Assembly: GCA_030748635.1 (NCBI GenBank)
Contig: JASMLP010000166.1
Coordinates: forward strand, 1 to 64,000
Length of the DNA: 64,000 nt
Direction: 5' to 3'
Source: Planctomycetota bacterium
Lineage (GTDB): Bacteria; Planctomycetota; JACQVV01; JASMLP01
In this document: one piece after another, positions 15,716 through 36,979 of the stretch
Layout: each line of letters opens with the position of its first letter
How positions within the stretch are numbered: position 1 is the first letter of the stretch
The notes under the pieces: generated by a model
Seen by the model: only the letters and a program-made list of their open reading frames with translations
Told to the model about the DNA's origin: nothing
The model's database searches: none
Made by a program: the position numbers and the translations under genes

Positions 15716-17197
15716 TCATTTGAACACAACCGTCCGGTCGTAGCGCATACCTCGACAACGAGTACACACTCGATGCCGTGTTCCTGCGTTGCTCCCCGCG
15801 ACCATATGAACCCGAACTCCCTTGCCTCCGCAACCCGAACAGGGCGTCCAGAGATTCCGTTCGACCTGGAGGTGCTGAATCGCATACAGACCTAACATCA
15901 GATTACTTCGACTAGACCGAGATGCGGCCCGATACCAAAGATTCTTGAGATCCGTTTCACTCTGCCCTCCGGATCCGCCACCCCCTCCCTGGCTCCCCCC
16001 TCGCGACCTACCGGTCTGAAGCTTGGGCCCCCCCATCTTCTCGATCAATTTCTTGATTTCATCGATATCCTTGCTCAGGCCCAGGGCATCCCCCCCTTCA
16101 GTTCCAGCATCTTCCTTGCTAGTTCCTTCAGTCCCCACGAGAAAGGATCCGCTACCAAAACTGACCCGAAAGGATTTTTTCTTGGCGCGTTCCTCGAAAA
16201 AACTCTCGACATCCTGTTCCTCGATTTTCAGCTTGGCCGCAACCAACTTCTTGGCCTCCTCTCCCATGGACCCTTCGGCATAACTTTTCGCCTCATCGTA
16301 TGTCACACCACGCTTCCCCGCCGCCTTTCCGGCCAGAGAACGAAGAGCGCTGATCATCTGATCAAAAACTTGCCTCTGCAAATGAGCATCACGCATTTGC
16401 TGGATCTCTTCGGTGATCAGAGCGGGATCTCGTGTCAGCGCACCTGCATTGTCCTGGAATTCAGCGACAAGTGCTGCCAGATCCGCCTCGGCCTCATCAA
16501 ATCTCTTGGCCTTGGCCTTGGAGAGAATCAAAACGAAACGAGCCTCGATCGCACGACGCTGAACCTCTTCATTTAGCGAAGAAACCCGCTCTGCATATCG
16601 TTCTTCATAACCAGGATCGATCTGAATAGCCTGCTGAAGATGCTCCAGCGCCTTTTCCACGTTCCCCAGACGAACCAGATATTCACAGAGGCGATAATGA
16701 TCCTGAGCGCTCTTGGGATTCAGTCCCTTTAATTGCTGGCGATACAACTCTTCTCCACTGTAGATTTCCGATGCGATCAACTGGATCGCTGTGGCCGTCC
16801 GAATCCGGCTTCGCTCGATCCGGAGAATACCGGAGGAGGTTTTCAACCGGAGCACTTCCGAATCGGTCCCCTTTTCGAGGGGGACCCCTTCCAGCACCCG
16901 GCCGTCCACGAGAAACAGACGCATTCCGCCAACTTTCTCATCCAGATCTTCCTCCAGGATGTATCCCAGCTTTCTCTGGAGCCGTTTTCGGTCGTCCACG
17001 ACCACCCGACTCCACTGAATCGTCACCACTCCACCGGTATCCCACCTCTCCAGAACAAACTGCTTTTCATCGTGTTCCACGATCTCACCCTGCAACCACT
17101 GTCCACCGGAAAGGCGTACGATTTCGGCATCGAGTCCTGAACACAGAAAAACCCCCAGGAATCCGACAAGGCAACTCAACAATAGGTTCTTGGTCAT
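15716..17197 (-). CDS. Exported TPR protein with SH3-like repeats and CxxC motifs
   Basis: Not a recognised family (493 aa). The signal sequence (about 1-25) is followed by two beta-barrel-like repeats, RLSGGQWLQGEIVEHDEKQF and FLVDGRVLEGVPLEKGTDSE, of the pattern hxxDGxxxxGxhxxh. One or two TPRs follow (YRLCEYLVRLGNVEKALEHL), then a Gly/Ser-rich linker, and a C-terminus with CSGCGGKGVR and CTRCRGMR. The Cys motifs resemble the DnaJ zinc repeat (CxxCxGxG) and may bind one zinc. I chose ATG 17197, preceded by GAGGAA; a TTG at 17221 overlapping the previous stop is possible. It is the last protein of the pseudopilin run and shares the DGxxxxG module with other proteins of that run, suggesting a common role. 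Confidence 0.72.
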   Translation of the reverse strand: MTKNLLLSCLVGFLGVFLCSGLDAEIVRLSGGQWLQGEIVEHDEKQFVLERWDTGGVVTIQWSRVVVDDRKRLQRKLGYILEEDLDEKVGGMRLFLVDGRVLEGVPLEKGTDSEVLRLKTSSGILRIERSRIRTATAIQLIASEIYSGEELYRQQLKGLNPKSAQDHYRLCEYLVRLGNVEKALEHLQQAIQIDPGYEERYAERVSSLNEEVQRRAIEARFVLILSKAKAKRFDEAEADLAALVAEFQDNAGALTRDPALITEEIQQMRDAHLQRQVFDQMISALRSLAGKAAGKRGVTYDEAKSYAEGSMGEEAKKLVAAKLKIEEQDVESFFEERAKKKSFRVSFGSGSFLVGTEGTSKEDAGTEGGDALGLSKDIDEIKKLIEKMGGPKLQTGRSRGGSQGGGGGSGGQSETDLKNLWYRAASRSSRSNLMLGLYAIQHLQVERNLWTPCSGCGGKGVRVHMVAGSNAGTRHRVCTRCRGMRYDRTVVFK

Positions 17198-17217
17198 CAC
17201 AACTATTTCCTCGTCAC

Positions 17218-17619
17218 TCAATAGGGGAACTTTCTCAGCAAGATGGTCCGGAACATTCGAGTTTGTTTTTCACCCCGCTCCGCCCACTCCACTTCGATTT
17301 CACTCAACACTTCGAATCCTACCGAATCCAGGGCCTCAAAACGTACATTGTAGCTAAATCCAGGATATTGACGGCTCTCCCGTTTCTGGATGTTCGCCAA
17401 AGGTTGCCTGATCACGAAATGAGGAGAAGATTCGATTTCTGAAACGAGAGAATCGACCAGCAGAGTCACATCGGTCTCGATCTGAGCCTGACGATGGGAC
17501 CAGGTTGCGGCCATCAGCAAACCCACTAGCGACCCCATACCCACCACGAAGATCCCCAAGGCCACGAGGATTTCGACCAGTGTAAATCCCGATCTGGAGG
17601 AGGGTGTATGGAGTCTCAT
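17218..17619 (-). CDS. gspI: Minor pseudopilin, GspI/PilV-like
   Basis: A short (133 aa) type IV pilin-like protein. The leader MRLHTPSSRSG is followed by FTLVEILVALGIFVVGMGSL, a class III signal with Gly at -1 and Glu at +5, which a prepilin peptidase would cleave and methylate. The mature domain is small, as in GspI (the minor pseudopilin that nucleates the tip complex with J and K). The ATG overlaps the stop of the J-like gene (ATGA), with GGAG ten bases upstream. The assignment as I rests on size and position next to J and K; sequence alone would only say minor pseudopilin. Confidence 0.8.
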   Translation of the reverse strand: MRLHTPSSRSGFTLVEILVALGIFVVGMGSLVGLLMAATWSHRQAQIETDVTLLVDSLVSEIESSPHFVIRQPLANIQKRESRQYPGFSYNVRFEALDSVGFEVLSEIEVEWAERGEKQTRMFRTILLRKFPY

Positions 17620-18704
17620 CGGGATTCACTCCGTAAAGGTAGACTCACCGACAATGAGCGAACCAGAGTAAATTCACGGCCGACCCAGACCGGAGTCCCC
17701 GCGGGATGAGCCTGGGCGTTCGTTCCGCGCTGACCACGACGTACTCCCAGTAGCGCTCCGTCCCCTTGCGACCGATATCCGATCCACTCCGTTCCCAATC
17801 GCGCATAACGGACCTTGTCGTCGGAGGGGTTCGGAAACCCCTTCAACGAAAGCACAGAAATACGAGCCGCGCGATCGTCAATATCGGTAAGGGTGTCGGT
17901 TCGAATCGAAAGTTCGGGGGATTGAGCGACGAGGGTCACGCGGATCTTTGCCGGATAAAATCCATCTACCAGCCTCGAAGCGACCGGATCTCCACGGTAC
18001 GGGAAGGTACTCGACCGAGCACAACTCGAATCCCAATTCGTAAGAGGGCCCCCGCTACGTACGCTCTGTCCCTCAACCCAGGTCGTGCTCTCGGGCCCCC
18101 CGTAGAGGACGTTGAAATAAAGCACATTACTAGCGATCACCGACCCGTTGTTCTCGATGTATTCGGGCGTGAGATTGTTCGGATCGAACAACGAACCGCT
18201 ACCGCCTAATGGACTGCGACGAATCCGCTTGATCTCCTGACGATCTGGGTCATACACATACAAAATCTCCACCAAACCGTCCTGAGCTCGCAACCGTACG
18301 CCCGGCACCTCTCGTCCCATGTAATAGTCTTGATAGCCCTCACTGACCGACTGCTCTCCGGCCCGATAGGTAATGAGCGTTTCATCCCTTTCGCTGAACG
18401 AGGCGACAAAGAGAAGAAATACCCGGCCGTTGGGCTGTTTCCCTCCGTAGAGACCGTACCTGATCGCTCCTTCAGACCTACCGGTCGGATGAAGGAGTTC
18501 CAGATCTCTTCCGATCTCCTCGAAAGCGATCCGGGCGCGTGCATACGCTTGCCGGGTCCCTTCACCCGCCTTCCAGGTTCTCAACGTGCTCGCCGTTGTC
18601 GTCACCAGCATGAGGCTCAGAAAGGTAAGAATGGCCACCGCAACCAGCAGTTCAGCAAGAGTAAATCCACCCTCGGAACTACCGTTCCTAGGCAAAGATC
18701 TCAT
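17616..18704 (-). CDS. gspJ: Minor pseudopilin, GspJ-like, with tail-type repeat module
   Basis: 362 aa, with leader ...SSEGG and mature start FTLAELLVAVAILTFLSLML; the +5 Glu and -1 Gly are present. ARARIAFEEIGRDLELL after the membrane helix is typical of GspJ. GspJ is usually about 200 aa; here a C-terminal extension (about 283-342) contains ARLGTEWIGY...VRRGQRGTNAQAHPAGTPV. The same module is repeated in the neighbouring K-like protein. The start has a perfect AGGAGG ribosome site and overlaps the upstream stop by four bases (ATGA). It would sit at the tip of a pseudopilus with I and K. Confidence 0.8.
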   Translation of the reverse strand: MRSLPRNGSSEGGFTLAELLVAVAILTFLSLMLVTTTASTLRTWKAGEGTRQAYARARIAFEEIGRDLELLHPTGRSEGAIRYGLYGGKQPNGRVFLLFVASFSERDETLITYRAGEQSVSEGYQDYYMGREVPGVRLRAQDGLVEILYVYDPDRQEIKRIRRSPLGGSGSLFDPNNLTPEYIENNGSVIASNVLYFNVLYGGPESTTWVEGQSVRSGGPLTNWDSSCARSSTFPYRGDPVASRLVDGFYPAKIRVTLVAQSPELSIRTDTLTDIDDRAARISVLSLKGFPNPSDDKVRYARLGTEWIGYRSQGDGALLGVRRGQRGTNAQAHPAGTPVWVGREFTLVRSLSVSLPLRSESR

Positions 18705-21700
18705 CGGCCCTCCTGATTGTGATAAACCCGTTCGGGAGTGCTTGTGGATACGGCTAATTCATTCAGTAGGGGCGACCGTTTCCAGTCCCCAGCCTGGTAG
18801 GAGCCGTTCCGATACCGGAACATAAAACGGATTTCCATTTCATCGGCCTGAATTCCCAGTTCATGTTCCGTATCCGCTCCCTCGAAAAGCCAAAGTCCGC
18901 CGGGCCGATTGGTAGGGGCAGAAGCCCAGGAAGGACTCCCGTCGAATCGAGCCAGAGCCACCACTTCGAGGCGATTCGAATCGACCACTTTTCCAAAACG
19001 CAAGGTACGAAACCAGGATCCGGGACGATTCACAGCCATCGTGTAATAGGCGAGTTCGGGTCCATCATATTCCAGTGCGAAACGGTCCGGATACCGAAAA
19101 GGCATCTGGTAGACCAGAGATCCCGCGGAGTGAGCTTCTCTGGAGGTCCCGAATGCGCCTCGAAAGATCCCCTTGCTATCCACCGATGGCATCCACAGCA
19201 CCCCTTGACTCCGTCGGGTATATCCGACCATCTCGGCTCCCACCCGAACATACCCTTCATTGGAATAGCCGGAAACCGAAGAGACTCGAAGCGCGTTGTC
19301 ATCCGCTCCCAAACCCGAAGTGAGAGCTGAAGCAACGAGATGAGATTGAGGAAAGACTAGAGCCCCCCCCGCATGGGCACCCGACGAAGAGCCCAGATAC
19401 CCGCGAATACATCCCTGTAGCACCCCCCCACCCGCCTGAGTCACGAGCCCGGTATATCCCACGTATTCATCACCGATTTTGACGATCCCGCCCGTTGCAG
19501 AAAGCCCGGTCGTAGAAGACACCTGAATCACGCTGTCCGAAGCAGAAATTCCGGTGCCAGATGCCAGCGGGAGTCCCCCCGTCACGGCCAATGCGCCGGA
19601 ACGCAATTCGTCAATAACTCCGGAACAGGTCCCACCCGCAAGACCGGACGCAGGCCCACCAAAGAAGACAGCCCCCCCGGTATAGGGCAATTCTCCCGTG
19701 GGAAATTTCAGAAGGCGCGAACCCCCGGAAGCGGCATAAGTACGACTCACCCATCCCCGAAAAGCGACCCGGTTTCCAGAAACCCAGTTGACCGTCATCG
19801 AAAGTCGACTTCCCAGCGCGTTCCCTTCGATCAAGGTGACCGAATCGAATCGTCCCACCTCGCTGGAGGTGGCGTTTCCGCCGACAGTGAATACCGGTTC
19901 GACCTGGGTTCCCGACCGATGCTGCACTTCGAGAGTTCCGTCCCGGGCCCGAATAAGCGCATTTTGAAGAATCTGATCCAAGGTTGTAACCCCGTTGGCA
20001 AGATCCTGGATCAACTGAGGGATCTGAGACTGAATCGATTGCATATCCACCGATTCATAGATAAAGAATCGCCCCATCTGGATCGAAGAGTAGTTGATCC
20101 ACTCATCGTCGATCTGGATCGAACCGCTGGCGGGATAATCCGACGCATTATCCACTGCGACCGAACACGGGATCACATAGGAACCTTGAGTAATGGTACG
20201 CGGCAAGGTGCCCAGTTGCCCCCGTTGACACCCCGAAAGACTGTTACTCGATTTCCCGGTGTAAGATACGTACTCGAAACGTATTCCAGGAAAGCTCAAT
20301 CGAACCAGTAAAGCAAATCCCTCCGACGGAAAGGCCGAGGTATTCTGCACGGGGATGATGGTGTCGGTCGCCGGCAGCGGTTGACCGATCGGCACATTCA
20401 CCAGAGTAAAATCGAGTGGATCCAGGTCTTCAGAAAGCGACCCGCCACCTCGCTGCAGATCGCTCGTCACCGGGATCGCGTAACCGTAGGGAAGAACCGG
20501 TGTCCCGCTAGCGTGCGACATCGGCGCGGTTCCGGCCCGATTCCGACGACTGCTGGAGAAACCGGGTGTGCTGGTGCGAACCGTCAAGCTCCGTCCAGAG
20601 ATTCGTTCGTATTCGATGACCTCTGTCCCGATCTGTACCACCCCCTGGGCGGGAAGATCGACATTCCGGTCCAAAGTAATCGTCCTCGACGAGGCACTCA
20701 GAGAGCCCGCTAACCGGGCGGAAAGAGGCCCCCCATCGCCGGTTCGGTAGGCGAACTCTGTTCCCGCATCCCAACCATCGATGAGTAAAGACAGTCCGCC
20801 ATAAGCGGTCGAATTCCAGGCCACATCAACATGGGACCACTGTCCGAGAGGAAGAGGTCGATTGGCTCGAGTCTCCGCATAGGCGGCCTCCAGAGTCACA
20901 TCGTATACCTTGAAAGATAAAGCGGATCCTTCGTCGACGAGGCTCAATCGGTCGGAAACGTCTCCCGTTCCAGAATCGAGAAGGATCTCTCCCCGCGACC
21001 GAGGAGAAAACCAGAACTGAATCACTCCTGGAGCCAACTGCCCCCCGGACGTTGCAAGGCTATTGATCAGCCCCTGGGACCTCTGAATCGTCCGCCCCTG
21101 GTGACTTCCCGCAAAATGCTCACGACCCGGAAGAGGCATCGGCAAAAGACCGACCGTTCCCGGTTCACCCTGCTCGGGCAACTGCAAAGACGAACGGGCT
21201 CCTAGAAAACGGGGTCCAGTCACCACCCACGAGGAGAGCATAAATTCCTTCGACCTGCGAAAACCGCTCTGCGTTCCGACCGAATAGCCCCCCATCGCAG
21301 GCAGTGCGACCAGCTGTCGAAGAGTTTGTCGAGACCGTTCCGCGCCCGCGTCCCCGCTGACCCAGCTAGTCCCTTCAATCCAAAAAAGTCGCCCAGCCGC
21401 ATAGGAGAAGGGAGCCGTAGTCTGCCGCAACCGTGAGGCCTGCTGCCAGCCGATCGTGCCCCCCCCACGACGCCCCCGCCTTTCGGTATAAGTCGCAGGA
21501 GCACCGCCGGGATGCTGACCCGCCACCAGAATCGAATTTTTGATACTCGGATTCATCTCATCCGAGGGAATGGAATCGAGTACCGATGACAGATGAACAG
21601 GCCCCCGAATCGCCTCCCCCCGGTCACGCAGTGAGAGAATTTCGCGGGTGACCCGGAGGGCATCGGAGTGGGTAACCACCACACTTCCCGTCCCACGAAT

Positions 21701-22837
21701 CCCGGACAAAAGCGCCACAAGCACTTTGGGGGGGGCGCTGTTGACCTGAACCGGGATGGGAGAAAGCACCGAGACTCGCGCAGCCGTCGTAAAAGCAATT
21801 CCCAGTTTTTGATGGAGGGCCAGCTGTCCGGACTGGACTCCTCGCACCAGGCCGTAAGCTTCTCTCCCTCCCTCCTGGATCCGCACCACAGAGCCGGGAT
21901 AGACAAAATCGATCCGATCGACTCGTAGTACATCGGGCACGTTCAATGCGGAGCTGCTGGGCAAAGTATTGCGCAGGAACTGTTCTCCCGTCCAGGTAGA
22001 GACATCTTCACACCAACCCCGCACCGTCAAATAGGGAGCGATCCGGTTGAATTCGCTTCGTGACAATGTACTCGACCCCAGATCCGCAATCCTCCGAACC
22101 TCTTCGACAGTCCGAAAAGGCTGCCAGCGAGAAGGGTCGCGTAACGGATATTTGGCTATCTTGTAGGCCCGAGCGTCGATCACGTGAGTACCGGCCGCAT
22201 GCATTCGAGCCGAGTAGTATTCAAATGGGCGCGAATCGTTGAGTACCGCTCGGGTTAACTGCTCGAAACCGGTTTCACTTCGAAACTGATACCCGATCAG
22301 TTCACCGTTGACAAAAAGGAGTCCCGCGTCGGGAAATCCTCGCGTGGATTCGACTTCAAGAACCGCCGTTTCCCCTTGCGGTAAATTCCGGCTCACCACC
22401 GTGGAGGCCAAAAGGTTTCCAAGCAACGAGAAGTTAGCCCGGTTCAGATCGATCAGCCCGGCCGCATCCTGGGCACGGGCTGTGATGAATCTTCCGCGAC
22501 CCGCAGCATCCACCCCAAGTTTCCCTCGCAATTCCGCTCCCATCCAAACGGAAGATTCACTCGGGAGGTCGTACTGGGGAGTATCAAAGGGCGGTTCAGC
22601 CCGAGAACTGGACTCGGAGGTCCGATCGGTCGAAACCAGCGAAGCCTTTGCGTGAGCCAAAGCGGTCCGGGCGCCCAGGCGAGCCTCGAAACGGGCGCTA
22701 AAACCGAGAGCTTCCCGACGCTCGATGCGCATACTCACCGAGAAGGGAATCACGATGATGGCCAGTAAGGCCAGTGTGGCGATCACCAGGAGCAAGGCGA
22801 TGCCCTGACGAGAATACTTCCCAGCGAATGAGTTCAC
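18701..22837 (-). CDS. gspK: Giant GspK-like pseudopilin with split LamG domain and repeats
   Basis: 1378 aa against about 330 for ordinary GspK. The N-terminus RQGIALLLVIATLALLAIIV is the K-type pilin helix without the +5 Glu, and DAAGLIDLNRANFSLL plus VNSAPPKVLVALL match the GspK SAM-like core. Inserted and appended are: a module at 156-220, a LamG-like region that opens at about 603-698 (VIQFWFSPRS...LLIDGW), further modules at about 716-783, 825-890 and 892-918, what looks like the closing LamG strands at about 1040-1080 (GVIDELRSG), and modules at 1100-1162 and 1179-1244. The start is GTG at 22837, overlapping the previous stop (GTGA) with GGAG upstream. It is presumably the tip protein of the pseudopilus with a large exposed head. 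Confidence 0.78.
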   Translation of the reverse strand: MNSFAGKYSRQGIALLLVIATLALLAIIVIPFSVSMRIERREALGFSARFEARLGARTALAHAKASLVSTDRTSESSSRAEPPFDTPQYDLPSESSVWMGAELRGKLGVDAAGRGRFITARAQDAAGLIDLNRANFSLLGNLLASTVVSRNLPQGETAVLEVESTRGFPDAGLLFVNGELIGYQFRSETGFEQLTRAVLNDSRPFEYYSARMHAAGTHVIDARAYKIAKYPLRDPSRWQPFRTVEEVRRIADLGSSTLSRSEFNRIAPYLTVRGWCEDVSTWTGEQFLRNTLPSSSALNVPDVLRVDRIDFVYPGSVVRIQEGGREAYGLVRGVQSGQLALHQKLGIAFTTAARVSVLSPIPVQVNSAPPKVLVALLSGIRGTGSVVVTHSDALRVTREILSLRDRGEAIRGPVHLSSVLDSIPSDEMNPSIKNSILVAGQHPGGAPATYTERRGRRGGGTIGWQQASRLRQTTAPFSYAAGRLFWIEGTSWVSGDAGAERSRQTLRQLVALPAMGGYSVGTQSGFRRSKEFMLSSWVVTGPRFLGARSSLQLPEQGEPGTVGLLPMPLPGREHFAGSHQGRTIQRSQGLINSLATSGGQLAPGVIQFWFSPRSRGEILLDSGTGDVSDRLSLVDEGSALSFKVYDVTLEAAYAETRANRPLPLGQWSHVDVAWNSTAYGGLSLLIDGWDAGTEFAYRTGDGGPLSARLAGSLSASSRTITLDRNVDLPAQGVVQIGTEVIEYERISGRSLTVRTSTPGFSSSRRNRAGTAPMSHASGTPVLPYGYAIPVTSDLQRGGGSLSEDLDPLDFTLVNVPIGQPLPATDTIIPVQNTSAFPSEGFALLVRLSFPGIRFEYVSYTGKSSNSLSGCQRGQLGTLPRTITQGSYVIPCSVAVDNASDYPASGSIQIDDEWINYSSIQMGRFFIYESVDMQSIQSQIPQLIQDLANGVTTLDQILQNALIRARDGTLEVQHRSGTQVEPVFTVGGNATSSEVGRFDSVTLIEGNALGSRLSMTVNWVSGNRVAFRGWVSRTYAASGGSRLLKFPTGELPYTGGAVFFGGPASGLAGGTCSGVIDELRSGALAVTGGLPLASGTGISASDSVIQVSSTTGLSATGGIVKIGDEYVGYTGLVTQAGGGVLQGCIRGYLGSSSGAHAGGALVFPQSHLVASALTSGLGADDNALRVSSVSGYSNEGYVRVGAEMVGYTRRSQGVLWMPSVDSKGIFRGAFGTSREAHSAGSLVYQMPFRYPDRFALEYDGPELAYYTMAVNRPGSWFRTLRFGKVVDSNRLEVVALARFDGSPSWASAPTNRPGGLWLFEGADTEHELGIQADEMEIRFMFRYRNGSYQAGDWKRSPLLNELAVSTSTPERVYHNQEGR
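19106..19540 (-). repeat. Two tandem IGxExIxY...RGxxGT...H..G modules in the GspK-like gene
   Basis: Two copies, encoded at about 19540-19352 and 19303-19106, read VKIGDEYVGYTG...CIRGYLGSSSGAHAGGALV and VRVGAEMVGYTR...FRGAFGTSREAHSAGSLV. They are protein-level repeats that have diverged at the DNA level. Confidence 0.7.
20168..20692 (-). repeat. Two further copies of the same module nested in the LamG-like region
   Basis: Copies at about 20692-20489 (VQIGTEVIEYERISGRSLTV ... HASGTPVLP) and 20365-20168 (FEYVSYTGKS...CQRGQLGTLPRT). A truncated copy, SIQIDDEWINY, follows at about 20164-20084. They lie between the apparent opening and closing strands of the LamG-like domain. Confidence 0.65.
22178..22372 (-). 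repeat. N-terminal copy of the module in the GspK-like gene
   Basis: About residues 156-220: LEVESTRGFPDAGLLFVNGE, LIGYQ, then HAAGTHVID. The RGxxGT part is replaced by a less conserved stretch. It is located between the pilin helix and the SAM-like core. Confidence 0.55.
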
Positions 22838-23877
22838 GATCCGCTCCGGGTCAACGGCGGGGCGCCGTAGCGTTCCGCCTCTTCCTGAGTCTCCAAGATC
22901 TTGATCTCTTTGAAACCTCCCATGCGGGTCACCTCGACCACCGCCCACTTCTCCAGGTTCTCACTATAGAGAAGGACCCGTTCGATATCGGTATCTCCAT
23001 GAACTCCGGAATCGAGACGTCCACGGGCATCGAAGACAAAGCGTTGGGGAGTCCGGACGATCCGGATGCGTTCCGGCAGTTCGATCTGCTCCAGGGTCAC
23101 CACATGATCCAACCGGACCTCATCGATGATTCCCTGAAAAGGCAAACTCGGGTCACTCACCGTGAATGTACGTTCCGGCTCCAATCGAGGCATCTCATCC
23201 ATCGGGACGCTTGCGACTCGGACCCGGTCGATCCAGAGCGCGAGTTCAACTCCGTCGGCGACCAGCGCGACATGAGTGAATCGGTTTCCCGTCATGAATC
23301 CAGGCTCGGTAAGGACCTGGGCCCCACCCGACTCACCGACCAATCTCATCTCATCATCCATCCAGAGAACCGCCCCACGTCCCGCCCTCAGAATCACCTG
23401 CCGACAGCGACGCCTGGGCTCCACCCACGCTTCCATCGCAATGCCTGTCGACAACCCAAACTCTCCCAGTAGACCGCAGTCGATTCGGCTTCCTGGCGAC
23501 AGACCAAACAGCCCCCCCTGCCCGAAACGTCCCGAGATCCATTCCACCCCGTGGACCTGTCCATGCCGTCCATAAGCTCCGGTGGTCCGATCATCCTCGA
23601 AATGCCATTGGCCCACGATTCGACGCCCGACACCACGAAAAGAGTTGCGACTCGAATCGATCTCGACCTGGGATCGAGCGGAACCCGCCAACGCCCACTG
23701 ACGCGCAGTTCTCAAAACAGACACGATCTGATTCCCTGAAGCTTCAAGCCGGTGTCCACGGCGAAGATTCGAGAAAAACGCGCTGCTAATCCCTAAAATG
23801 ATCGCCACGAGACTCACCACGACCATCAACTCCACCAGCGTGTAGGCCCGAGACCCACTGGAGGAGATCGGCCGCAC
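22834..23877 (-). CDS. gspH: GspH-like pseudopilin with inserted LamG domain
   Basis: 347 aa; GspH is normally about 150-190. The N-terminus GSRAYTLVELMVVVSLVAII is a pilin helix, but Ala occupies the -1 position in place of Gly. LEASGNQIVSVLRTARQWAL is the GspH-type alpha helix. At about 86-257 a LamG/concanavalin-like domain is inserted (VGQWHFEDDRTTGAYGRHG; SGIAMEAWVEP-type strand; FQGIIDEVRL end strand). The GspH beta strands then resume (IRIVRTPQRFVFDARGRL). The start is GTG at 23877 just after the previous stop, with AAGGGG upstream; a TTG at 23895 is possible. It overlaps the K-like gene by four bases. The insertion would display a ligand-binding domain on the pseudopilus. Confidence 0.8.
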   Translation of the reverse strand: MRPISSSGSRAYTLVELMVVVSLVAIILGISSAFFSNLRRGHRLEASGNQIVSVLRTARQWALAGSARSQVEIDSSRNSFRGVGRRIVGQWHFEDDRTTGAYGRHGQVHGVEWISGRFGQGGLFGLSPGSRIDCGLLGEFGLSTGIAMEAWVEPRRRCRQVILRAGRGAVLWMDDEMRLVGESGGAQVLTEPGFMTGNRFTHVALVADGVELALWIDRVRVASVPMDEMPRLEPERTFTVSDPSLPFQGIIDEVRLDHVVTLEQIELPERIRIVRTPQRFVFDARGRLDSGVHGDTDIERVLLYSENLEKWAVVEVTRMGGFKEIKILETQEEAERYGAPPLTRSGS

Positions 23878-23879
23878 CC

Positions 23880-27275: not shown

Positions 27276-28151
27276 TCAAAAATCCTCGAAAAGAATCTTC
27301 CTGGGAGCTTTCTTCTTCCCGCGTCCCGCTCCCCCAGGCGTGGTTCCAGAACTTCCGCCATAACCACCTTGCCCTCCCTCGATACCCGCTTGGAGAGCTT
27401 TGGCGACTTCGTCCCCCTCCTGGACCAGAAGGGCTCCGAGAGTCACTTCCAGTGTCATCAAGGAGTCCTTCGACCGACTTTTGACTGTCGCCTGGCGCAA
27501 CGCGAAAGCGCGACGCGTCCCTCGCAACACCTCATGAAGAAACTCTGCGACCTGATCCGAACTGCCTTCAAGAACCAGACGCAACGGAGTCTCGATCAGA
27601 TAGGGTTCTGACTGGCTCGGAGTAGAAACGGAATGATCGATCGACACGATTCGACGGACACGAGCCGCAAAGGCCGCCTCCAGAATGTCACGAGACATAT
27701 CCAATCGCAGAAGGGCTCGGTCCAGTTCGTCCGCCGTAGGATTGGAATCTCCAAACCCCAGGTCGGGAGGGAACGGCATGGAAAATTCGCTTTGACGTCG
27801 TGTAAATTCGGATTGGAGCGCGAGGCGCATCTTGAAGAAATCGACACTTCCCTCCACCGACTTCAAGGTCAATGAGGGATTCCTCTCGAACGCAATCCGG
27901 TTTTCCAAACGTTGAATCAACGTCGCCAGTCGGGATCGAGACTCCTGAGCCTGAGAAACCAGTCCCGGTTCAGGCGGCACCTTCGCGGCAAAAAGCGACT
28001 GAAGCGTATTGCGTTCATTATGACTATCTTTGCGAGCTTGTTCGACTTTATCGCCCAATCCGCCAAGCACACAAGGCCCCAGCACGACCAGCATACATCC
28101 CTGGATGCCGACCAAACGCACCCAACTCTTGTTTTCCTGGTAAAAAGACAT
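27276..28151 (-). CDS. gspM: GspM/PilO-like inner-membrane assembly protein
   Basis: 291 aa with a single N-terminal membrane segment (about 12-33), a coiled-coil stretch (VEQARKDSHNERNTLQSLFA) and a small periplasmic alpha/beta domain (IETPLRLVLEGSSDQVAEFL, a ferredoxin-like pattern seen in PilO/GspM). The C-terminus is Gly-rich and basic (GGSSGTTPGGAGRGKKKAP). Assignment depends largely on the preceding PilM/GspL-like gene, nine bases upstream; sequence similarity to M/O proteins is generally low. It would form the L-M inner-membrane platform. Confidence 0.65.
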   Translation of the reverse strand: MSFYQENKSWVRLVGIQGCMLVVLGPCVLGGLGDKVEQARKDSHNERNTLQSLFAAKVPPEPGLVSQAQESRSRLATLIQRLENRIAFERNPSLTLKSVEGSVDFFKMRLALQSEFTRRQSEFSMPFPPDLGFGDSNPTADELDRALLRLDMSRDILEAAFAARVRRIVSIDHSVSTPSQSEPYLIETPLRLVLEGSSDQVAEFLHEVLRGTRRAFALRQATVKSRSKDSLMTLEVTLGALLVQEGDEVAKALQAGIEGGQGGYGGSSGTTPGGAGRGKKKAPRKILFEDF

Positions 28152-28160
28152 GAGGGCGAA

Positions 28161-29804
28161 TTACTCCTCGAACTGGACCTGTAGCAAAAAGGAAAGAATA
28201 CCCTGGTCACGGTCAGCAACCTGTTGAACGATTTCGCAACTTTTCAAACGATCAAGTCCCGCAAGATGGGCTGCATAGTCGGCCAAAATGACCTGTACGT
28301 CCGATCTGGATTCCTCGACAAAACCCCGAACAGCAAACACAACGACATCGCTTGAAACTCCGGATGAGGACCTTCCTGAACGGACCTCACCCAAGGACTC
28401 CGCTCCCATCCCCACCGCCTCGATGAAGACATGGACCGGTGTTTCTCGCTTGAGAAGTGCCAGCAATTCGAAGAATCGATTCCCCGGGATAACGGCCCTC
28501 TCGATCATCGTTCTCTTCACACGCAAAAGGGCTGAAGACTTTTCTGTATCCTCGAGCGAACTGGCCAGACCCTGAACACGACTTCTCTCCATGACCAAAC
28601 GATGAGACTGATCTCTCGCTTCTCCCAGATGGCTCCAGGACAGAAATATCGCGAGCAGGAGAAGTACTGCGGTCGCAGCCATGGAAATATAGCTCGGTAA
28701 CCTTCGCCGCGAGAAGTCGCGACGCTTGTCTTCGCCAGAGGAGAGAAGCTCCAGTCGATATCCTTCCGGCTCCGCCGCCATTTGGGCCAAACCAAGGGCC
28801 ACCTGAAAACCCGACTGCGGGTTTCCGAGCAGTTTTCGCGACTCCTCCGTGGCAGGACCCATTTCGATCTGAGGCCGAGGATCAAAGCCGAGAACAGGAG
28901 ATCCCAGACTCTTCATCAGATATTCCCTCAAACCGCAAACCCCAAGCGCCTCGCCGGAGAGTACATAACGGTCGATACGCAATTCGACCAGCGCCAATTG
29001 CAATCGACAGAACTTGATCGCGCTCTCGATACCCGCTAGGATCTGGCTGGCTCCAGCCAAACCCGCTTCCTGACCCGTAGCACCCTGTGCACCCGGGGTC
29101 AGATCCAGCGAATTAAAGATTCGGGAACGAATCGCTCCAGGGTCTCCTCCCGCCCCATCTGCGGCGGAGCCGAGCAAGGCCTCCAAACCGATGGAAAGAT
29201 TCCGCAAAAAATAGAGAGTCCCATCCGATACGATTGCCAGATCCAGGGAGTGAAGGCCCAGATGCACAAGAACCACAGTCTCTTTGGATCGAACGTCTCC
29301 GAACTTCACAAAAGAGCGAAAAAGCGCAACCGAGAGAGGCGTCACAGACTGAATTCCAAGACGAGACTTGCGACCTTGAAGGTATATGGATTCGATCCAG
29401 GGATCTCGCGCCATCGCCACCAGCAAAGCGTATTGATCCACCTTGCGGCTAGGAACATTCAAGATCCGGTAGTCGTAGCACGGCTTCTCTTCCGCGGTCC
29501 GAGTCATCTCTTCGATGTCGAACTCCATCAATTTGGCAAGTCTCCACGCGTTCACCCTGGGCACATGCACATAACGAAGAACGAGATCGCGACCGCTGAC
29601 ACCAACCATACAGGGACGTTTCTTGAAGCCCTCCTGTTTCAGCCAGGCCTGAAGTTGAGTGACAACCTCGGGCGAAAAAGCGCCTTCCGAAATCGGGAAA
29701 CGATTCGCTCCAGCCAACACCCAGGTACCGGCCTCGGTCCGGTCCAAGGCCGCGACCTTCAACTCCGAAGCGCCAATCTCGATCCCTAACCCAGAAGCGT
29801 TCAC
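28161..29804 (-). CDS. gspL: PilM/GspL-like actin-fold platform protein
   Basis: 547 aa. The N-terminal 350 residues have the PilM-type actin fold: LGIEIGASELKVAALDRTEA (phosphate-1), VGVSGRDLVLRYVHVPRVNA, VVLVHLGLHSLDLAIVSDGT (phosphate-2) and YVLSGEALGVCGLREYL. A membrane segment (about 370-390, SMAATAVLLLLAIFL) is followed by a coiled coil and a small periplasmic domain, so the protein fuses PilM-like and PilN/GspL-like parts. It would recruit the assembly ATPase to the inner membrane. The start is GTG at 29804 with GGAG seven bases upstream, 22 bases after the FHA gene, probably the same transcript. Confidence 0.82.
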   Translation of the reverse strand: MNASGLGIEIGASELKVAALDRTEAGTWVLAGANRFPISEGAFSPEVVTQLQAWLKQEGFKKRPCMVGVSGRDLVLRYVHVPRVNAWRLAKLMEFDIEEMTRTAEEKPCYDYRILNVPSRKVDQYALLVAMARDPWIESIYLQGRKSRLGIQSVTPLSVALFRSFVKFGDVRSKETVVLVHLGLHSLDLAIVSDGTLYFLRNLSIGLEALLGSAADGAGGDPGAIRSRIFNSLDLTPGAQGATGQEAGLAGASQILAGIESAIKFCRLQLALVELRIDRYVLSGEALGVCGLREYLMKSLGSPVLGFDPRPQIEMGPATEESRKLLGNPQSGFQVALGLAQMAAEPEGYRLELLSSGEDKRRDFSRRRLPSYISMAATAVLLLLAIFLSWSHLGEARDQSHRLVMERSRVQGLASSLEDTEKSSALLRVKRTMIERAVIPGNRFFELLALLKRETPVHVFIEAVGMGAESLGEVRSGRSSSGVSSDVVVFAVRGFVEESRSDVQVILADYAAHLAGLDRLKSCEIVQQVADRDQGILSFLLQVQFEE

Positions 29805-29826
29805 CGGGATCTCCTATCAGGTGAGA

Positions 29827-32610
29827 TCATTTGCCTTCTCCCAGAAGAGTCCGAATCGGATCGTATTTCAATCCGAGTTCCTGCAACTCTCTCCGAGCAT
29901 CATTAGCGGCTGGAGTCTGAGGATATCGGTCCAGAATCTGGAGATAAAAAAGCGCCGCCAGATGTGGCTTCTTGAGACTCTGGCAATCACGAGCCCGACG
30001 AAATAGCACCTGGCCTTCCTGGGAAGCGCCACGCTGTTCGAGACGAATCAATTCTTCGTTGGCTGCCAGACGTATGCGGGTAGCCATATTCGCGAATTCG
30101 GTTCCCTGAAGGCGCGCCTCCGTCTCCGCACATCGAGTCGCAAGCTTTTCAAATCCGGTTCGCTCCTGGAAAAATCGGGCATAGGTCAACGACGCCTCGA
30201 GCTCTTCGATGGACTCCTGGGCTTGACCCGAAATCGCTTCCAGACGTTTTCCGAATTCCTCAACACCGCTTTGAAAAGGGAATTCAAGCTGGATCTTGCG
30301 CAACAACTTCATGGCTTCTCCCCGGCGAGCAGGATCGGATTCCATGTTCCGAAATTGATCGCACAAGGAATCGTACTCGTCTTTCTCGTGAACAAACCCC
30401 GTCCGAACCTCCAACAGGAACGTTCGGCCTTCGCCCCCTTCGGGAGCCGAACCAGAAATGCCCACCGATTGGAGAATAACAGGGCGAGTTCCCACCATCA
30501 CAAGACGCGAAAGCGCCGGAATCGGACTGACCACGTCGAAGCGTTCATCCGCGCGAACCCAACTCAACTGACGGACATCGGGTTCTTCGAATTGACCCCG
30601 ACGCCTTTGAATCTCATCGACCCCGACAATCCCAGTTCCTTTCTCGGAAAAATAGGCGGGTTCTGGCTGGAAGCGAACTCCGATGGTACGCAAATCTTTC
30701 AATCCACCCGTTTGCAAGCGATAGCCGATAGCCACTGTCCGATCACGCAAACGTATAACCGCGGAAAAGGGCAACCAATGACCCGATACAAAATCGAAAA
30801 GGCGACTTTGCAAGATCAGAGTATCGGTACCTTCCACCTTCGGATATCCAGGCTCGGTACGAGAATAGAACTGGTCGACGTACAAGCGAGATCCCTGCGC
30901 CGTCTCCCCCCCCCAAGATCCGATGCAGCGCAAATCGGCGATCAGAACTTGCCGACCCCTGGCTACGGTCACGATGCCACATTCGTCCGACTCCACCCGT
31001 AGGGACCCAGAAGCCAACTGAATCGTCTCTCTCCTCGCCCCACCGTGCCGAACTCGCAGGACCACATCTTCGAAATACGCATCGGAAACATCCCCAACGG
31101 TCATCAAAAGGACCTGCAAATGAGTGCTTCCCAGGGGAGGAGCCACCTCTCCCCCGATCTCTTCCCAGTCCTCACGAACGCCATCGATCCACCCCAGCGA
31201 GACCGATCGACGATAGGTAGGATCCTCTTTACTCCGAAACTGAACGACAATCCCCGAAAGCCCGCGTGAATGCGTCGGCCATATCCAACCGGAGACCTCA
31301 TAGCTCTTCCCGACAGTAACCGGGATCAATGCCCGACTGACACATTTACGCGACGAGGGGATCGGAATCCCCTCAAGAGGGCCAAATCGCAAACTCGACG
31401 AAGCGGTGCGAGACTTCACTCGAGTACCCAGAACCCCCGGCGCGCTCGAATTCCAGTGAACGGTTTTCTGAGATTCCGCGTCCAGAACCTCAAAGGAAGG
31501 ATCTGGCAACAGATTCCTTTCAAAAAGAAAATCGGTCCCCTCGCCACCCTGCTCATGATTCTTTAATGCGGTCGCCTGGTGATGATGAAAAACCAACGTC
31601 CCTCCGACCAGCACCCCACCGACCAAAACAGACAGGAGGATAAAAGGAACTCCACGTCCACGACTCGAGACCACACGCTGCCGCGCGCCGCTGAGTTCAT
31701 GCATACGAGCCAGCTCTTCGCCGCTAACCGGGGGAGGACCACCCACTTTTTGAAAGTAAAATCGGGAGCCTCCAAAAGTCATCAAGTCTCCGTGACTCAA
31801 ACGAATACGATTTACCTTGTCACCATTGACTAGCGTCCCGTTGGTACTTCCCACATCCTCCAACCAGTAATGTCCTCCATGATGAACGATGCGAGCGTGC
31901 ATGCCGCTCGACTGCTGATCTTTCAGTTGGATCAGATTGGAGGATTTTCGTCCTATCGTGGTCTCCTGCTCGGGATCCAGAGGGATCTCAATCGCATCCT
32001 CCCCCTCCTCGACCTTTTTGACGACCAGAAAGCGCTCGGTCAACATGATGCTGGGAGCTTCGATGGATGGCTCGGGATCCGATCCTTGCTCCTCGCTCTC
32101 TGAAGGTTCTTCCGGCTCCAGCTCCAGGACGGGTACCCCGGGAATATCGTCGGAACTCTCTTCCAACTTGAGGACCTGAGGACCCTCTTGATCGAGTTCC
32201 TCAGGGGTTGAAGGAGCCTCATCTTCCTGTTTTGAAAGAACATCCTCCTGTCCCGGCCGCATGGTTACCGCGTCTTCGAAACCCTCCGGAACGTGATCTT
32301 CTTCTCGCGAATAGAAGACGATATCCGTCGTTCCGATCGTGATCTTATGCCCATGCTCGATCGATTTTTCACCCTCCACTCGAACGCCTTGGAGGAGCGT
32401 TCCGTTCCGACTCCCCAGGTCCGCAAGAACATACTCACCATCTCGTCGAATGATCTTGCAATGATGGCGACTGGAGGCGTTATCATCGATGACGATGGTC
32501 GAACGCTTAGAACGCCCGATGGACAATTCCTCTCGGATCATCCGATAGGTTTCGCGAATACCGCCTCGATCGAGAACGAGACGAGGTGTGCATGCAGACG
32601 GATCGGTCAT
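29827..32610 (-). CDS. Two-FHA membrane protein with CBM-like periplasmic domain
   Basis: 927 aa. Two cytoplasmic FHA domains that would bind phosphothreonine lie at about 27-97 (IGRSKRSTIVIDDNASSRHH, LGSRNGTLLQG) and 216-286 (IGRKSSNLIQLKDQQSSGMH, VGSTNGTLVNG). A very acidic linker separates them. A membrane helix (about 321-343) leads to a periplasmic part that begins NLLPDPSFEVLDAESQ, the usual opening of CBM4/9-type beta sandwiches, followed by more beta-rich sequence and a helical C-terminus with a TPR-like end (ALFYLQILDRYPQTPAANDA). It lies between a Ser/Thr kinase and the GspL-like gene. It may receive kinase signals and couple them to the secretion platform (inference). Confidence 0.8.
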   Translation of the reverse strand: MTDPSACTPRLVLDRGGIRETYRMIREELSIGRSKRSTIVIDDNASSRHHCKIIRRDGEYVLADLGSRNGTLLQGVRVEGEKSIEHGHKITIGTTDIVFYSREEDHVPEGFEDAVTMRPGQEDVLSKQEDEAPSTPEELDQEGPQVLKLEESSDDIPGVPVLELEPEEPSESEEQGSDPEPSIEAPSIMLTERFLVVKKVEEGEDAIEIPLDPEQETTIGRKSSNLIQLKDQQSSGMHARIVHHGGHYWLEDVGSTNGTLVNGDKVNRIRLSHGDLMTFGGSRFYFQKVGGPPPVSGEELARMHELSGARQRVVSSRGRGVPFILLSVLVGGVLVGGTLVFHHHQATALKNHEQGGEGTDFLFERNLLPDPSFEVLDAESQKTVHWNSSAPGVLGTRVKSRTASSSLRFGPLEGIPIPSSRKCVSRALIPVTVGKSYEVSGWIWPTHSRGLSGIVVQFRSKEDPTYRRSVSLGWIDGVREDWEEIGGEVAPPLGSTHLQVLLMTVGDVSDAYFEDVVLRVRHGGARRETIQLASGSLRVESDECGIVTVARGRQVLIADLRCIGSWGGETAQGSRLYVDQFYSRTEPGYPKVEGTDTLILQSRLFDFVSGHWLPFSAVIRLRDRTVAIGYRLQTGGLKDLRTIGVRFQPEPAYFSEKGTGIVGVDEIQRRRGQFEEPDVRQLSWVRADERFDVVSPIPALSRLVMVGTRPVILQSVGISGSAPEGGEGRTFLLEVRTGFVHEKDEYDSLCDQFRNMESDPARRGEAMKLLRKIQLEFPFQSGVEEFGKRLEAISGQAQESIEELEASLTYARFFQERTGFEKLATRCAETEARLQGTEFANMATRIRLAANEELIRLEQRGASQEGQVLFRRARDCQSLKKPHLAALFYLQILDRYPQTPAANDARRELQELGLKYDPIRTLLGEGK

Positions 32611-32653
32611 CGTTTACCTGTGAAATACATACAAACGGTATGCCGAGAGTTCG

Positions 32654-32681
32654 AAAAAAGGGGAAGAAGAGCCAACTCCCC
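32654..32681 (-). terminator. Weak intrinsic terminator or attenuator before the FHA gene
   Basis: On the minus strand GGGGA and TCCCC form a 5-bp stem with a 12-base loop, followed by six T. It lies 100 bases after the kinase stop and 43 bases before the FHA start, downstream of a predicted promoter, so it could end kinase transcripts or attenuate the secretion operon. Confidence 0.4.
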
Positions 32682-32748
32682 AGGAGCCGAGCAGTTAGGA
32701 TACCTTACATTCCGTTTCCGAGGGCGTCTCCCAAAATTCATCGTTAAG

Positions 32749-32778
32749 AATGTTTCCATCCCTCCGGAAAGGTGTCAA
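32749..32778 (-). promoter_or_regulatory. Possible promoter of the FHA-secretion gene run
   Basis: A perfect TTGACA (32778-32773) is followed after 18 bases by AACATT (32754-32749), which matches only half of the -10 consensus. The leader would be about 130 bases and contain the hairpin at 32654-32681. Confidence 0.35.
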
Positions 32779-32784
32779 TTTGAT

Positions 32785-35667
32785 TTACTCGGATTTCACA
32801 GGAAAGTCCTCGTCCGAGCACCACCATTCCTTGCCCAAATGCCCCCGCAAAATCATCTCCATGATCCGAACAGGGTGGGATCCGACCCACAGAACAGCCA
32901 ATCCAGACCCCGCATTCTCATCTTCCAAAGGGGACTCAATCCGCTCGGATCCCCAACTAAAAACAGCCACATTTTTTGTCGGATTCGTTTCTAACGTCAA
33001 TCGGTGTGCCTGCATTCTTGACAACTCCGGGCGTGGAACCACTTTTTCTACCCGACTGACGACCTTCCCCTCTCTGCGAAGTTCGATACCGACTCGAATC
33101 TCCTTCTTATGGGTTTCTAGCACATAACCGCGCAAAAAACTTCCGGAGGCTCGATATCCGATCGCAATATGCAGAGAGAGAAAATTCGAATGAATCGGGT
33201 TCACGACGATCTGAAATGAAACATGGCCCTGAAGTCGCAGTCGGTGAGCCAAAAAAGAGACGGGCTCCCCGGTCCATCCCGACGAATGCAGTCGCCAGCG
33301 ACCCGTTCTCGACGCAATCACCCCAGGCAAAAGCCCACGCCGATCCAATTCCACCCACTCGAGTTCTTTCTGTTCACCTCGCGTTCTTTCCTCTTTCCCC
33401 CATTTCCCCCTCGTAACGTTCACCTCGACCGCTCGATTCGAATCGATCCGAACTTTCCCATGAACCCGACTGGACACCTGATCCATTCGCTCACGGTCCT
33501 CGATGAGATCGGCTCTCCAGCCGCGCACTTCAGAGCCGCGTGTACGCATAAATACGGTACCGGAATACTTATTGATCAGCTGCTCCAAGAGCAAACAAGC
33601 ACCTCGAAGATCCCCTTGGTTCTTCTTCGTCTCGGCCTGTTCAAAAACCTCTTTCGCCTCTCTCTCCTCCCGAAAACGCATCAGATGTAGCAGCAATCGC
33701 CGTAGTCGAACGGAAGACACATCGGCAGATGGCAACACACGCAGAGAACGCTTGTACTCTCCATCCGCGAGGAGAAAAAGAGCACGGTTCGCGGACTGTT
33801 CACCGACTCCAGCCCACCGCATGAGATGGGTCGTGGCCAGTCGATACACACCGATCCCCAATTCAACACCTGTCCGGACCTCGAGGTTCAGTTGATCTCG
33901 GGTACAGCCCACGATCCTTCCCTCGAATTTTGTACCCTCCCGAAGAAGAAAGGACTCACGCCTGCCGACCTTGGAGTGAATCTCCCGAGTCGCCTGGAGA
34001 AGCACCGCCTCCATCGCGAGTACATCTTCTCGATATATCCACCTTCTAAGCTGGGGGGCAGATTCAAGAAAGGTGATCGCGTTGAGAAAACTCCGCTTTT
34101 GGAGCAGAGGTAGAATCTCCTTTTCCAGACTTTTCGCATCCCCTTCAGAAAGCGAAAGGACGAGGTCCTCTTCCTGGGTGATTTGGGGTTCCGGCTCCGG
34201 AGAAGATTTCGTTTTACTCTCCTCTCGACCGCCAGAATATTCCGAGAGGGTTCCGTCAAGAAATTCCTGGAGATCGACAACCATCGACTTCCAAAACTCC
34301 TCCCCCAACGTACTTTCCTCTTTCCCAACGGTTTCCGACATCTCCCCTTTTCCCAAACGCTCCTCTCCATCCGTCGGGTCCAGTGCGGGCTCGAACTCTA
34401 GTGGACTCTTCGGCAGAGGCGCCAATTCGGACACCCTGGGCAGATCCACCCCACGCGCATCCGACGCCGGGCCGATCGCTCGAAGATTGGATGCATTCTG
34501 GCTTTCTCCGCGAAAATACCAAAAGGGGAGAAGACAAAGGTGCAGGACAATCGAGACCAGAAGCAAACGGTCACGTATTCGATGAATACCTTCTTTTGTT
34601 CCCTTCTCGAAGGAGAGAGGGATATCCACGGTATCCATCTCTCCCTGTTCAATGCGTAACAGATCTCCAATCAACTGCCCGCAATCCGTGTAGCGATGTT
34701 CCGGATTCTTTTCCAGGAGTTTCCGAATCACTCGATCCATCACAGGAGAAAGATTCGGATTCAAGCGCAAGGGGGGTACGAGAGGTCTCTGTAGATGGGC
34801 TACGAGAATGGCGCCCAAACTCCCTCCAAGAAATGGAGCCTGTCCAGTCACCGCGAAGTAGAGAGTGGCTCCGAGTGAATAGAGGTCGCTTCGTCCATCG
34901 AGATCATCTTCCCCCACCGCCTGCTCCGGACTCATATAGTGCGGTGTACCATGAGTGACCCCGGTCCGAGTCAGCCGAGCATCCAGATCGGCGGGACGAG
35001 CCAAGCCGAGATCACAAAGATGAGACTGTCCATCTTGATCGAGAAGGATATTGGCAGGCTTGATATCCCGATGAAGAATGCCGTGTTCATGAGCATGCCC
35101 CAGAGCTTCAGCCATCTGCCGAGCCAACCGAACCACTTCTTTCTGTCCAAGAAGTCCGGACTTGCTCACACGATCCTTGAGCGTTTCCCCCTCGACATAC
35201 TCCATGACGAAATAGTGAACGCCGTTATCGGCGCCGACATCGAATCCCCCCACCACATGAGGGTGGTTCAATCGAGCCACAGATCGAGCTTCGCGATAAA
35301 AGCGCGCCAGGTATTCAGGGTCTTCTTGCAGAACAGGATCGAGGATCTTGATGGCGACCTTTCTGTCCAGATTTTGTTGCCTCCCCTCGTAAACCGAGCC
35401 GGTAGCTCCCTCCCCGATCTTGGCAACCAAGTGATACCCCTCAACCTGGGGAAGATCGAGTTCCTTGGCGATATTCCGATAGATCGTTTTGACCAGATAT
35501 CTGGAGAGCTGCCCTTCAGCCAGTAGCAACTCGGATATCGAGCGGGAGCGAAACCCACGATCGATAAGCTTGGACTGGAGTCGAATTACCGCATCGACCT
35601 GCTCCCGGGACAGGTAACTGCAGCGCAACGCCTCTTCCGAAAAGATCCGGTCTTCTATGGACTTCAT
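32785..35667 (-). CDS. Transmembrane Ser/Thr protein kinase with extracytoplasmic jelly roll
   Basis: 960 aa. An N-terminal helical module (about 15-68, SREQVDAVIRLQSKLIDRG and SISELLLAEGQLSRYLVKTI) precedes a Hanks-type kinase (about 78-338). The kinase has a G-loop GEGATGSVYEG, Lys107 (VAIK), HRDIKPAN with Asp201, DLG in place of DFG, and GTPHYMSPEQ. A membrane helix (about 367-384) follows. The periplasmic part contains an acidic region, a barrel-like module (REGTKFEGRIVGCTRDQLNL) and a C-terminal beta sandwich (HVSFQIVVNPIHSNFLSLHI). The catalytic residues needed for activity are present. The ATG at 35667 is preferred over a TTG two codons upstream; the ribosome site is weak. It is probably the sensor for the downstream FHA and pseudopilin genes. 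Confidence 0.87.
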   Translation of the reverse strand: MKSIEDRIFSEEALRCSYLSREQVDAVIRLQSKLIDRGFRSRSISELLLAEGQLSRYLVKTIYRNIAKELDLPQVEGYHLVAKIGEGATGSVYEGRQQNLDRKVAIKILDPVLQEDPEYLARFYREARSVARLNHPHVVGGFDVGADNGVHYFVMEYVEGETLKDRVSKSGLLGQKEVVRLARQMAEALGHAHEHGILHRDIKPANILLDQDGQSHLCDLGLARPADLDARLTRTGVTHGTPHYMSPEQAVGEDDLDGRSDLYSLGATLYFAVTGQAPFLGGSLGAILVAHLQRPLVPPLRLNPNLSPVMDRVIRKLLEKNPEHRYTDCGQLIGDLLRIEQGEMDTVDIPLSFEKGTKEGIHRIRDRLLLVSIVLHLCLLPFWYFRGESQNASNLRAIGPASDARGVDLPRVSELAPLPKSPLEFEPALDPTDGEERLGKGEMSETVGKEESTLGEEFWKSMVVDLQEFLDGTLSEYSGGREESKTKSSPEPEPQITQEEDLVLSLSEGDAKSLEKEILPLLQKRSFLNAITFLESAPQLRRWIYREDVLAMEAVLLQATREIHSKVGRRESFLLREGTKFEGRIVGCTRDQLNLEVRTGVELGIGVYRLATTHLMRWAGVGEQSANRALFLLADGEYKRSLRVLPSADVSSVRLRRLLLHLMRFREEREAKEVFEQAETKKNQGDLRGACLLLEQLINKYSGTVFMRTRGSEVRGWRADLIEDRERMDQVSSRVHGKVRIDSNRAVEVNVTRGKWGKEERTRGEQKELEWVELDRRGLLPGVIASRTGRWRLHSSGWTGEPVSFLAHRLRLQGHVSFQIVVNPIHSNFLSLHIAIGYRASGSFLRGYVLETHKKEIRVGIELRREGKVVSRVEKVVPRPELSRMQAHRLTLETNPTKNVAVFSWGSERIESPLEDENAGSGLAVLWVGSHPVRIMEMILRGHLGKEWWCSDEDFPVKSE

Positions 35668-36972: not shown

Positions 36973-36979
36973 CCCGGAA

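Follow-up and report, generated by a model that had tools for sequence, protein, structure and literature searches.

An operon of ten genes on the minus strand

The window examined here, the first 64 kb of the 83-kb contig C166 of a 4.2-Mb genome in 217 contigs, contains a minus-strand operon of ten genes (15716-32610) that encode, in order, an FHA protein, a GspL-like protein, a GspM/PilO-like protein, a TPR protein (TPR1), the pseudopilins G, H, K, J and I, and a second TPR protein (TPR2). The gene of a membrane Ser/Thr kinase lies 174 bp upstream of the FHA gene, and with the kinase included eleven minus-strand ORFs were confirmed at 15716-35673; the LarC-type gene downstream of the operon is unrelated. 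The first-pass annotation had described this run of kinase, FHA, L, M, G, H, K, J, I and TPR genes, and the ORFs and domain profiles agree with it. It had also reported that most pseudopilin genes overlap by 1-4 bases, and we found overlaps of exactly 4 bases at five junctions (TPR2/I, I/J, J/K, K/H and G/TPR1), but the H/G overlap is 16 bases with H and G as called. For K, the start was reassigned to a GTG at 22837, where GTGA overlaps the stop codon of H. Divergent from the operon, at 35956-42395, a sigma-70 factor and a TPR-peptidase-like protein are encoded, together with another large Ser/Thr kinase in which one stretch weakly resembles DUF4388.

A TM scan found one TM-like segment in each membrane protein of the locus, which places the extra C-terminal domains of the kinase, the FHA protein, TPR1 and the pilins in the periplasm before assembly, unless they are exported.

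A predicted set of type II secretion pseudopilins

In the type II secretion system (T2SS), GspK with I and J forms the tip of the pseudopilus, G elongates it, and its link to the ATPase is made by L and M. The order of the tip is also given in PMC8179133. As far as sequence can tell, the locus has the full T2SS pseudopilin set, predicted G, H, I, J and K, together with the predicted partners L and M. A prepilin N-terminus with Glu5 and an N_methyl match are present in each of G, H, J and I. The major pseudopilin G (23880-24515) has DPWGNPY and a GspG-type C-terminal motif, the signature of T2SS major pseudopilins, and matches TIGR01710 at 7e-17, which is below the equivalog cut-off, and T2SSG at 1.7e-6, which is above the gathering score. 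Among the minor pseudopilins, J (17616-18704) matches N_methyl at 4e-5 and TIGR02599 at 7e-9, I (17218-17619) matches N_methyl at 9e-6 and the PilV, XpsI and GspI models, and the giant K of 1,378 aa (18701-22837) matches NF037980 at 8e-5, with all profile matches of H, I, J and K staying below the equivalog cut-offs. K begins with a hydrophobic prepilin segment and a GspK-type N-terminus without Glu5, and its core (~21305-22837) keeps DEQGKxNLN and PVNVNTA, which we take to be typical of tip GspK proteins; T2SSK matches K in 4 of the 22 relatives.

The L protein (28161-29804; PilM_2 6e-8, TIGR01175 6e-14, Amuc_1101 6e-12) has a PilM-type, actin-like cytoplasmic domain at aa 1-370, a TM segment at 373-391 and a periplasmic C-terminal part, which is the bitopic layout of GspL. 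M (27276-28151) has an N-terminal TM segment and only a weak likeness to Amuc_1100 (NF038287, 0.005), and it is assigned as GspM/PilO-like from its topology and from its position, which is conserved in ~60 loci.

Repeated phage-baseplate-type modules in K and J

When compared with PHROG profiles, K matched the baseplate wedge family phrog_2885 at 3.5e-14, phrog_708 at 1e-7 and phrog_1101 at 1e-5, the three being baseplate wedge and tail families, and J matched phrog_1101 weakly. An HMM of the underlying module (~60 residues, consensus TEIPVEDASGFPDSGVVRIGGELIEYTSRSGGSLTGTGVGRGARGTEPQAHAAGAPVLD) finds six copies in the window K and a single copy in the window J. These modules had gone unnoticed in the first-pass annotation. 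The first copy in K is inserted inside the GspK core (22175-22366, 6.5e-14), and the others follow at 20489-20686 (2.2e-15), 20168-20362 (7.3e-13), 19898-20167 (interrupted, 3.7e-12), 19349-19534 (3.7e-12, the best stretch of the phrog_2885 match) and 19106-19297 (2.2e-16); the copy in J lies at ~17685-17867 (1e-15). In relatives, the module occurs in 1-6 copies in all 24 K ORFs matched and once in 21 J ORFs, and in none of the other ORFs of those loci. A Foldseek search of K against viral models returned cyanophage structural proteins among its matches, and tblastn gave one weak phage match to the K modules and none that was strong, so the likeness to phage baseplates rests on the PHROG profiles and Foldseek.

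Lectin-type folds on H, K and the FHA protein

Pseudopilin H (22834-23895) contains a LamG domain (Laminin_G_3) at ~23083-23451 that scores over the Pfam cut-off. Pfam also finds LamG in H of 25 of the 30 relatives, with a best value of 5e-18, and the H family profile matched pilins and, at 9e-12, neurexin LamG in the PDB. In K, a LamG domain was found at ~20756-21022 (Pfam 7e-6) and in 10 of the 22 relatives; the AF2 model of K (pLDDT 74) had laminin G, neurexin and agrin LamG domains as its best PDB matches, these being local matches with low whole-chain TM-scores. A fusion of a pilin N-terminus to a PF13385/concanavalin A-like module is therefore present in H, as seen by Pfam, and in K, as seen from the fold and from those 10 of 22 relatives.

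The FHA protein (29827-32610; Pfam FHA 2e-34) gave an AF2 model with a pLDDT of 80 and a confident beta region at residues 365-736, and its Foldseek matches in the PDB were FHA domains, CBM16 (TM-score 0.78 over the target), CBM22 and GH2/GH38 sandwich domains. The protein has two cytoplasmic FHA domains (~32308-32547 and ~31771-31962) and a TM segment (~31588-31644), followed by a periplasmic CBM16-like domain (~31036-31518), a galactosidase-type sandwich (~30403-31023) and a helical C-terminus, the structural matches being placed on residues from their size and strand positions. In addition, CBM_4_9 was matched in the FHA protein of 5 of the 29 relatives.

TPR1 (24512-27181) consists of an N-terminal TM anchor, a proline-rich linker, a TPR array recognized by Pfam and a conserved C-terminal domain (24515-25114) in which the alignment of relatives shows an invariant Trp and an invariant Gly. 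Comparison of this C-terminus with the H LamG profile, with the kinase C-terminus and with the PDB gave no significant match; we consider the domain probably lectin-like in fold. For the C-terminus of the kinase, neither Pfam nor the comparison with the TPR1 C-terminus supported a beta-sandwich. The first-pass annotation had assigned extracytoplasmic beta-sandwich regions to five proteins, and this was borne out for H (Pfam and PDB profile) and for K and the FHA protein (AF2 and Foldseek), but not for the kinase, and TPR1 has a conserved domain without a significant match.

TPR2 (15716-17221; Pfam TPR_2 7e-6) has a signal peptide or anchor, small beta modules and TPRs. At the C-terminus of this secreted protein (aa 459-492, ~15746-15847) we noted a DnaJ-like CxxCxG...CxxC pattern resembling a zinc ribbon (DnaJ_CXXCXGXG, 0.019), which is kept in nearly all complete relatives. 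We also noted that TPR1, TPR2 and the kinase share a small beta module of ~60 aa with the pattern 'DG..leG.i', and we treat this as a lead only, because these three proteins also supplied the sequences for the HMM.

Phosphothreonine-binding residues are conserved in the FHA domains

The kinase (32785-35673; Pfam Pkinase 1e-50) has its kinase domain at aa 80-329 and one TM segment at ~366-384; its periplasmic region includes a short beta module and resembles TPRs along one stretch. The kinase gene adjoins the operon only in the window and at one other locus, L051. The phosphothreonine-binding pattern GR..S..H..NG is present in both FHA domains of the window and in most relatives. Phospho-reading is thus conserved, and a linked kinase is not. 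The earlier proposal of phosphorylation control by the kinase and the FHA protein thus holds for the FHA residues, but not for the kinase as a conserved member of the operon. Directly upstream, the FHA protein in the two relatives scanned is an FHA-GAF-sigma54 activator-Fis protein, and an FHA ORF of similar size is found there in many loci. Upstream of the operon in L044, L046, L061, L083, L084 and L094 we observed an RsmE-type rRNA methyltransferase, a large TPR membrane protein and an FHA-GAF-sigma54 activator, and some of the large TPR membrane proteins upstream in relatives include a PMT_2-like region.

The gene order recurs in Planctomycetota

The order FHA-L-M-TPR1-G-H-(K)-J-I-TPR2 recurs at ~60 loci in Planctomycetota with a protein identity of 15-40%, so the same arrangement is found well beyond the source genome, as the first-pass annotation had asked of its proposal. 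A search with L found matches in 53 of 59 relatives, mostly with <40% identity, and profile searches of the neighbouring 20 kb recovered the gene order in ~43 loci, as far as each stretch reaches; the order was also found in most of 18 further loci, picked mainly at the divergent end. In 394 Planctomycetota genomes of at least 90% completeness, 127 (counted among the matches listed, with the synteny of the weakest matches checked in part) had a best L match of 2e-58 or lower, with a gap separating these from the generic PilM matches. Those relatives that were recovered from a named collection are all MAGs, nearly all of them assigned to Planctomycetota or a planctomycete taxon, and the hosts of the operon are mostly uncultured.

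K reaches up to ~2,000 aa in relatives. Ten loci have no K between H and J, and we considered that K had been lost from them; this was rejected, since the genomes of such loci that were tested encode a solitary K of ~1,800-2,000 aa with 6-7 modules elsewhere in the genome. In one genome with operon-type L, K is a contig-edge fragment only, and seven genomes without operon-type L also lack such a K. In at least two genomes (L185 and L187), the relocated K lies beside sigma-factor-like and anti-sigma-like genes.

Motor genes lie elsewhere in the genome

The 64-kb window contains no secretin, ATPase or GspF gene, as the first-pass annotation had stated, and the relatives searched have no secretin or GspF near L, the hits being at a distance of at least 30 kb or on a different contig (closest, 30-40 kb in one genome). 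PilQ and PilT are also absent from the locus, which thus does not have a type IVa PilMNOPQ operon. Genes for gspD, gspE and gspF, whose location had been left to be checked, are found on contig C181 of the source genome, unlinked to the operon. C181 encodes a complete T2SS with D, E, F, G, H, I, J and a PilM-type L, and in a reading of its ORFs no GspK was recognized; contig C187 continues the end of C181. The source genome also has PilB, PilT and PilC on C54, PilM/PilQ-type genes on C186 and the start of a further E-F pair on C168, whose GspF fragment falls, in an unsupported grouping, beside T2SS-like GspF proteins from other planctomycetes. At L070:808-4596 (G000:C187) lies the gene of a protein of 1,263 aa that has four FHA domains and, in its C-terminal region, an HExxH-like stretch; this gene is convergent with a GspF-like gene spanning the C181/C187 break.

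In GspF trees, the C181 copy belongs to a clade common to nearly all sampled genomes with operon-type L (local support 0.89), and this clade also includes genomes without it, such as G096 and G116. The operon may thus share the T2SS motor, an assignment based on a co-occurrence that is confounded by ancestry, since the C181-type clade also occurs without the operon. A dedicated GspF, from a clade almost confined to genomes with operon-type L, was considered and rejected, as its neighbours are PilT and ordinary pilins, that is, a type IV pilus, and the source genome does not have it. Two GspF-domain matches (G044:C2:120080 and G085:C1:488153) fall in stop-free frames of 24,589 and 13,576 aa, which are either giant genes or stop-poor antisense frames.

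Discussion

The operon resembles the T2SS pseudopilus in its set of G, H, I, J and K, in its bitopic PilM-type GspL with a GspM/PilO-like partner, and in a K without Glu5. It differs from the T2SS in that D, E and F are not linked, in that its K, which bears LamG and baseplate-type modules, is 1.4-2 thousand residues long and its H carries a LamG, and in that the FHA scaffold and the TPR proteins are conserved members. The Akkermansia Amuc_1098-1102 pilus-like operon is similar in its PilM-like Amuc_1101 and Amuc_1100-like proteins (NCBIfam), but the planctomycete operon has no secretin and has other pilins, and its scores are far below the equivalog cut-offs. The repeated ~60-residue module of K and J is like that of phage baseplate wedge and tail proteins (phrog_2885, phrog_708 and phrog_1101), except that in the operon it is fused to a pseudopilin. 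As in the threonine-phosphorylation modules of the T6SS type, the FHA domains keep the phosphothreonine-binding residues, but there is no conserved kinase beside the FHA target. The Kil/Tad-like apparatus of Myxococcus is likewise an FHA-rich pilin system with genes split between clusters, but it is of the Tad family and has another platform and other pilins (PMC8460266).

Modular pilins that bear a PF13385 lectin module already form a recognized class (PMC8179133). One of them, PilC of Streptococcus sanguinis, is a glycan-binding pilin that has been placed in a type IV pilus tip complex (PMC9934059). Decorated pilins are thus not new in themselves, and this class qualifies the first-pass statement that T2SS pseudopilins are normally small and undecorated. 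The operon shares with modular pilins and PilC the fusion of a pilin N-terminus to a concanavalin A/LamG-type PF13385 module and the proposed location at a tip, but it is a T2SS-type set of a diderm with two decorated subunits, and its K is far above the 860-residue extreme cited for multi-domain pilins (PMC8179133, PMC9934059). Type II secretion genes have been described in Planctopirus limnophila as well, where they form a large putative operon together with partners specific to the phylum (PMC10632474). We did not find in the open-access literature searched the same layout of two decorated subunits, a giant GspK with baseplate modules, an FHA scaffold and an unlinked motor across a phylum. 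Judged by its sequences, the operon shows modular pilins extended to predicted T2SS-type pseudopilins, and a phage-baseplate-type module reused on a putative pseudopilus tip.

What we observe is the architecture of the operon, its co-conservation and the folds on H, K and the FHA protein. To explain them we incline, with moderate confidence, to a second T2SS-like pseudopilus of part of the Planctomycetota, with a giant tip that would grip glycans, a borrowed motor and a link to phosphothreonine signalling. G would be polymerized by a motor from another locus, most likely that of the complete T2SS in the source genome or else of its type IV pilus, and the G filament would sit under an I-J-K(-H) tip as in the known T2SS. 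The giant K and H would offer lectin-type surfaces to grip a polysaccharide, peptidoglycan or a glycosylated substrate, either in the wide planctomycete periplasm or at the mouth of the secretin. The FHA protein and TPR1 may form a periplasmic, carbohydrate-facing scaffold, and binding of phosphothreonine by the FHA domains may tie assembly or expression to Ser/Thr kinase signalling. Assembly of the filament is putative here, because the window and the relatives searched show no linked secretin or GspF, and the window has no ATPase. In favour of such a pseudopilus are the order kept in ~60 loci at low identity, the GspK motifs of a K that lacks Glu5 and its retention in the genome when relocated, LamG in H and K, the CBM16-like and galactosidase-type folds, the FHA residues together with the sigma54 activator, the location of the extra domains past a single TM segment, and the precedent set by PilC, a lectin pilin placed in the tip complex of a pilus (PMC9934059). 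The first-pass proposal of a pseudopilus with lectin-like heads is supported by the same lectin-type folds on H and K and from the conservation of the unit in the phylum.

The same genes could instead be an alternative tip-and-scaffold set for the existing T2SS, in which a swap of pseudopilins on one machine alters the choice of substrate. This reading, which we consider rather unlikely, would account for a C181 system that is complete except for a recognized GspK, next to a window with a giant K, and for C181-type GspF in nearly all sampled genomes with operon-type L; but the operon comes with a separate G, L and M, beyond the needs of a tip swap, the C181-type clade also occurs without the operon, and the absence of K from C181 was judged from a reading of ORFs. 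LamG folds often bind proteins as well, and the K extension resembles the architecture of the phage baseplate, which is itself structural, so the LamG and baseplate-type modules might serve as plug, tether or substrate clamp of a substrate-specific secretion pseudopilus that binds protein and not glycan. We find this doubtful, as the CBM16-like domain and the glycosidase-type sandwich on the FHA scaffold point to carbohydrate.

Dextran-gold decorates pili-like fibres of the crateriform structures in Planctopirus and Gemmata (PMC5394234), and an operon that supplies lectin-type pilins might encode the polysaccharide-binding fibre apparatus of these structures. Yet in many highly complete planctomycete genomes, of families f25, f42, f4, f61, f72 and f84, there is only a generic PilM match or none, and no motor is linked; we consider this explanation very improbable. 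That the operon is a relic, or a cassette whose pilin-like proteins build no filament, comparable to the Verru_Chthon cassettes of Verrucomicrobiota, seems to us equally improbable: J and H do score against TIGR02599 and TIGR02596 and the motor is again not linked, but the operon has dedicated L and M proteins and its whole order is conserved phylum-wide.

Returning to the second, glycan-gripping pseudopilus, a bolder form of it, which we offer only tentatively, would make the operon an FHA-gated, motor-sharing planctomycete branch of the type IV filament superfamily, with a giant lectin/baseplate GspK tip for the capture, processing or export of extracellular or periplasmic polysaccharide. 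The operon bears on how planctomycetes handle large polysaccharides and on the roles of their many extra type II- and type IV-like genes, and it provides a defined set of conserved genes whose lectin-type tips, as putative glycan binders, are open to testing.
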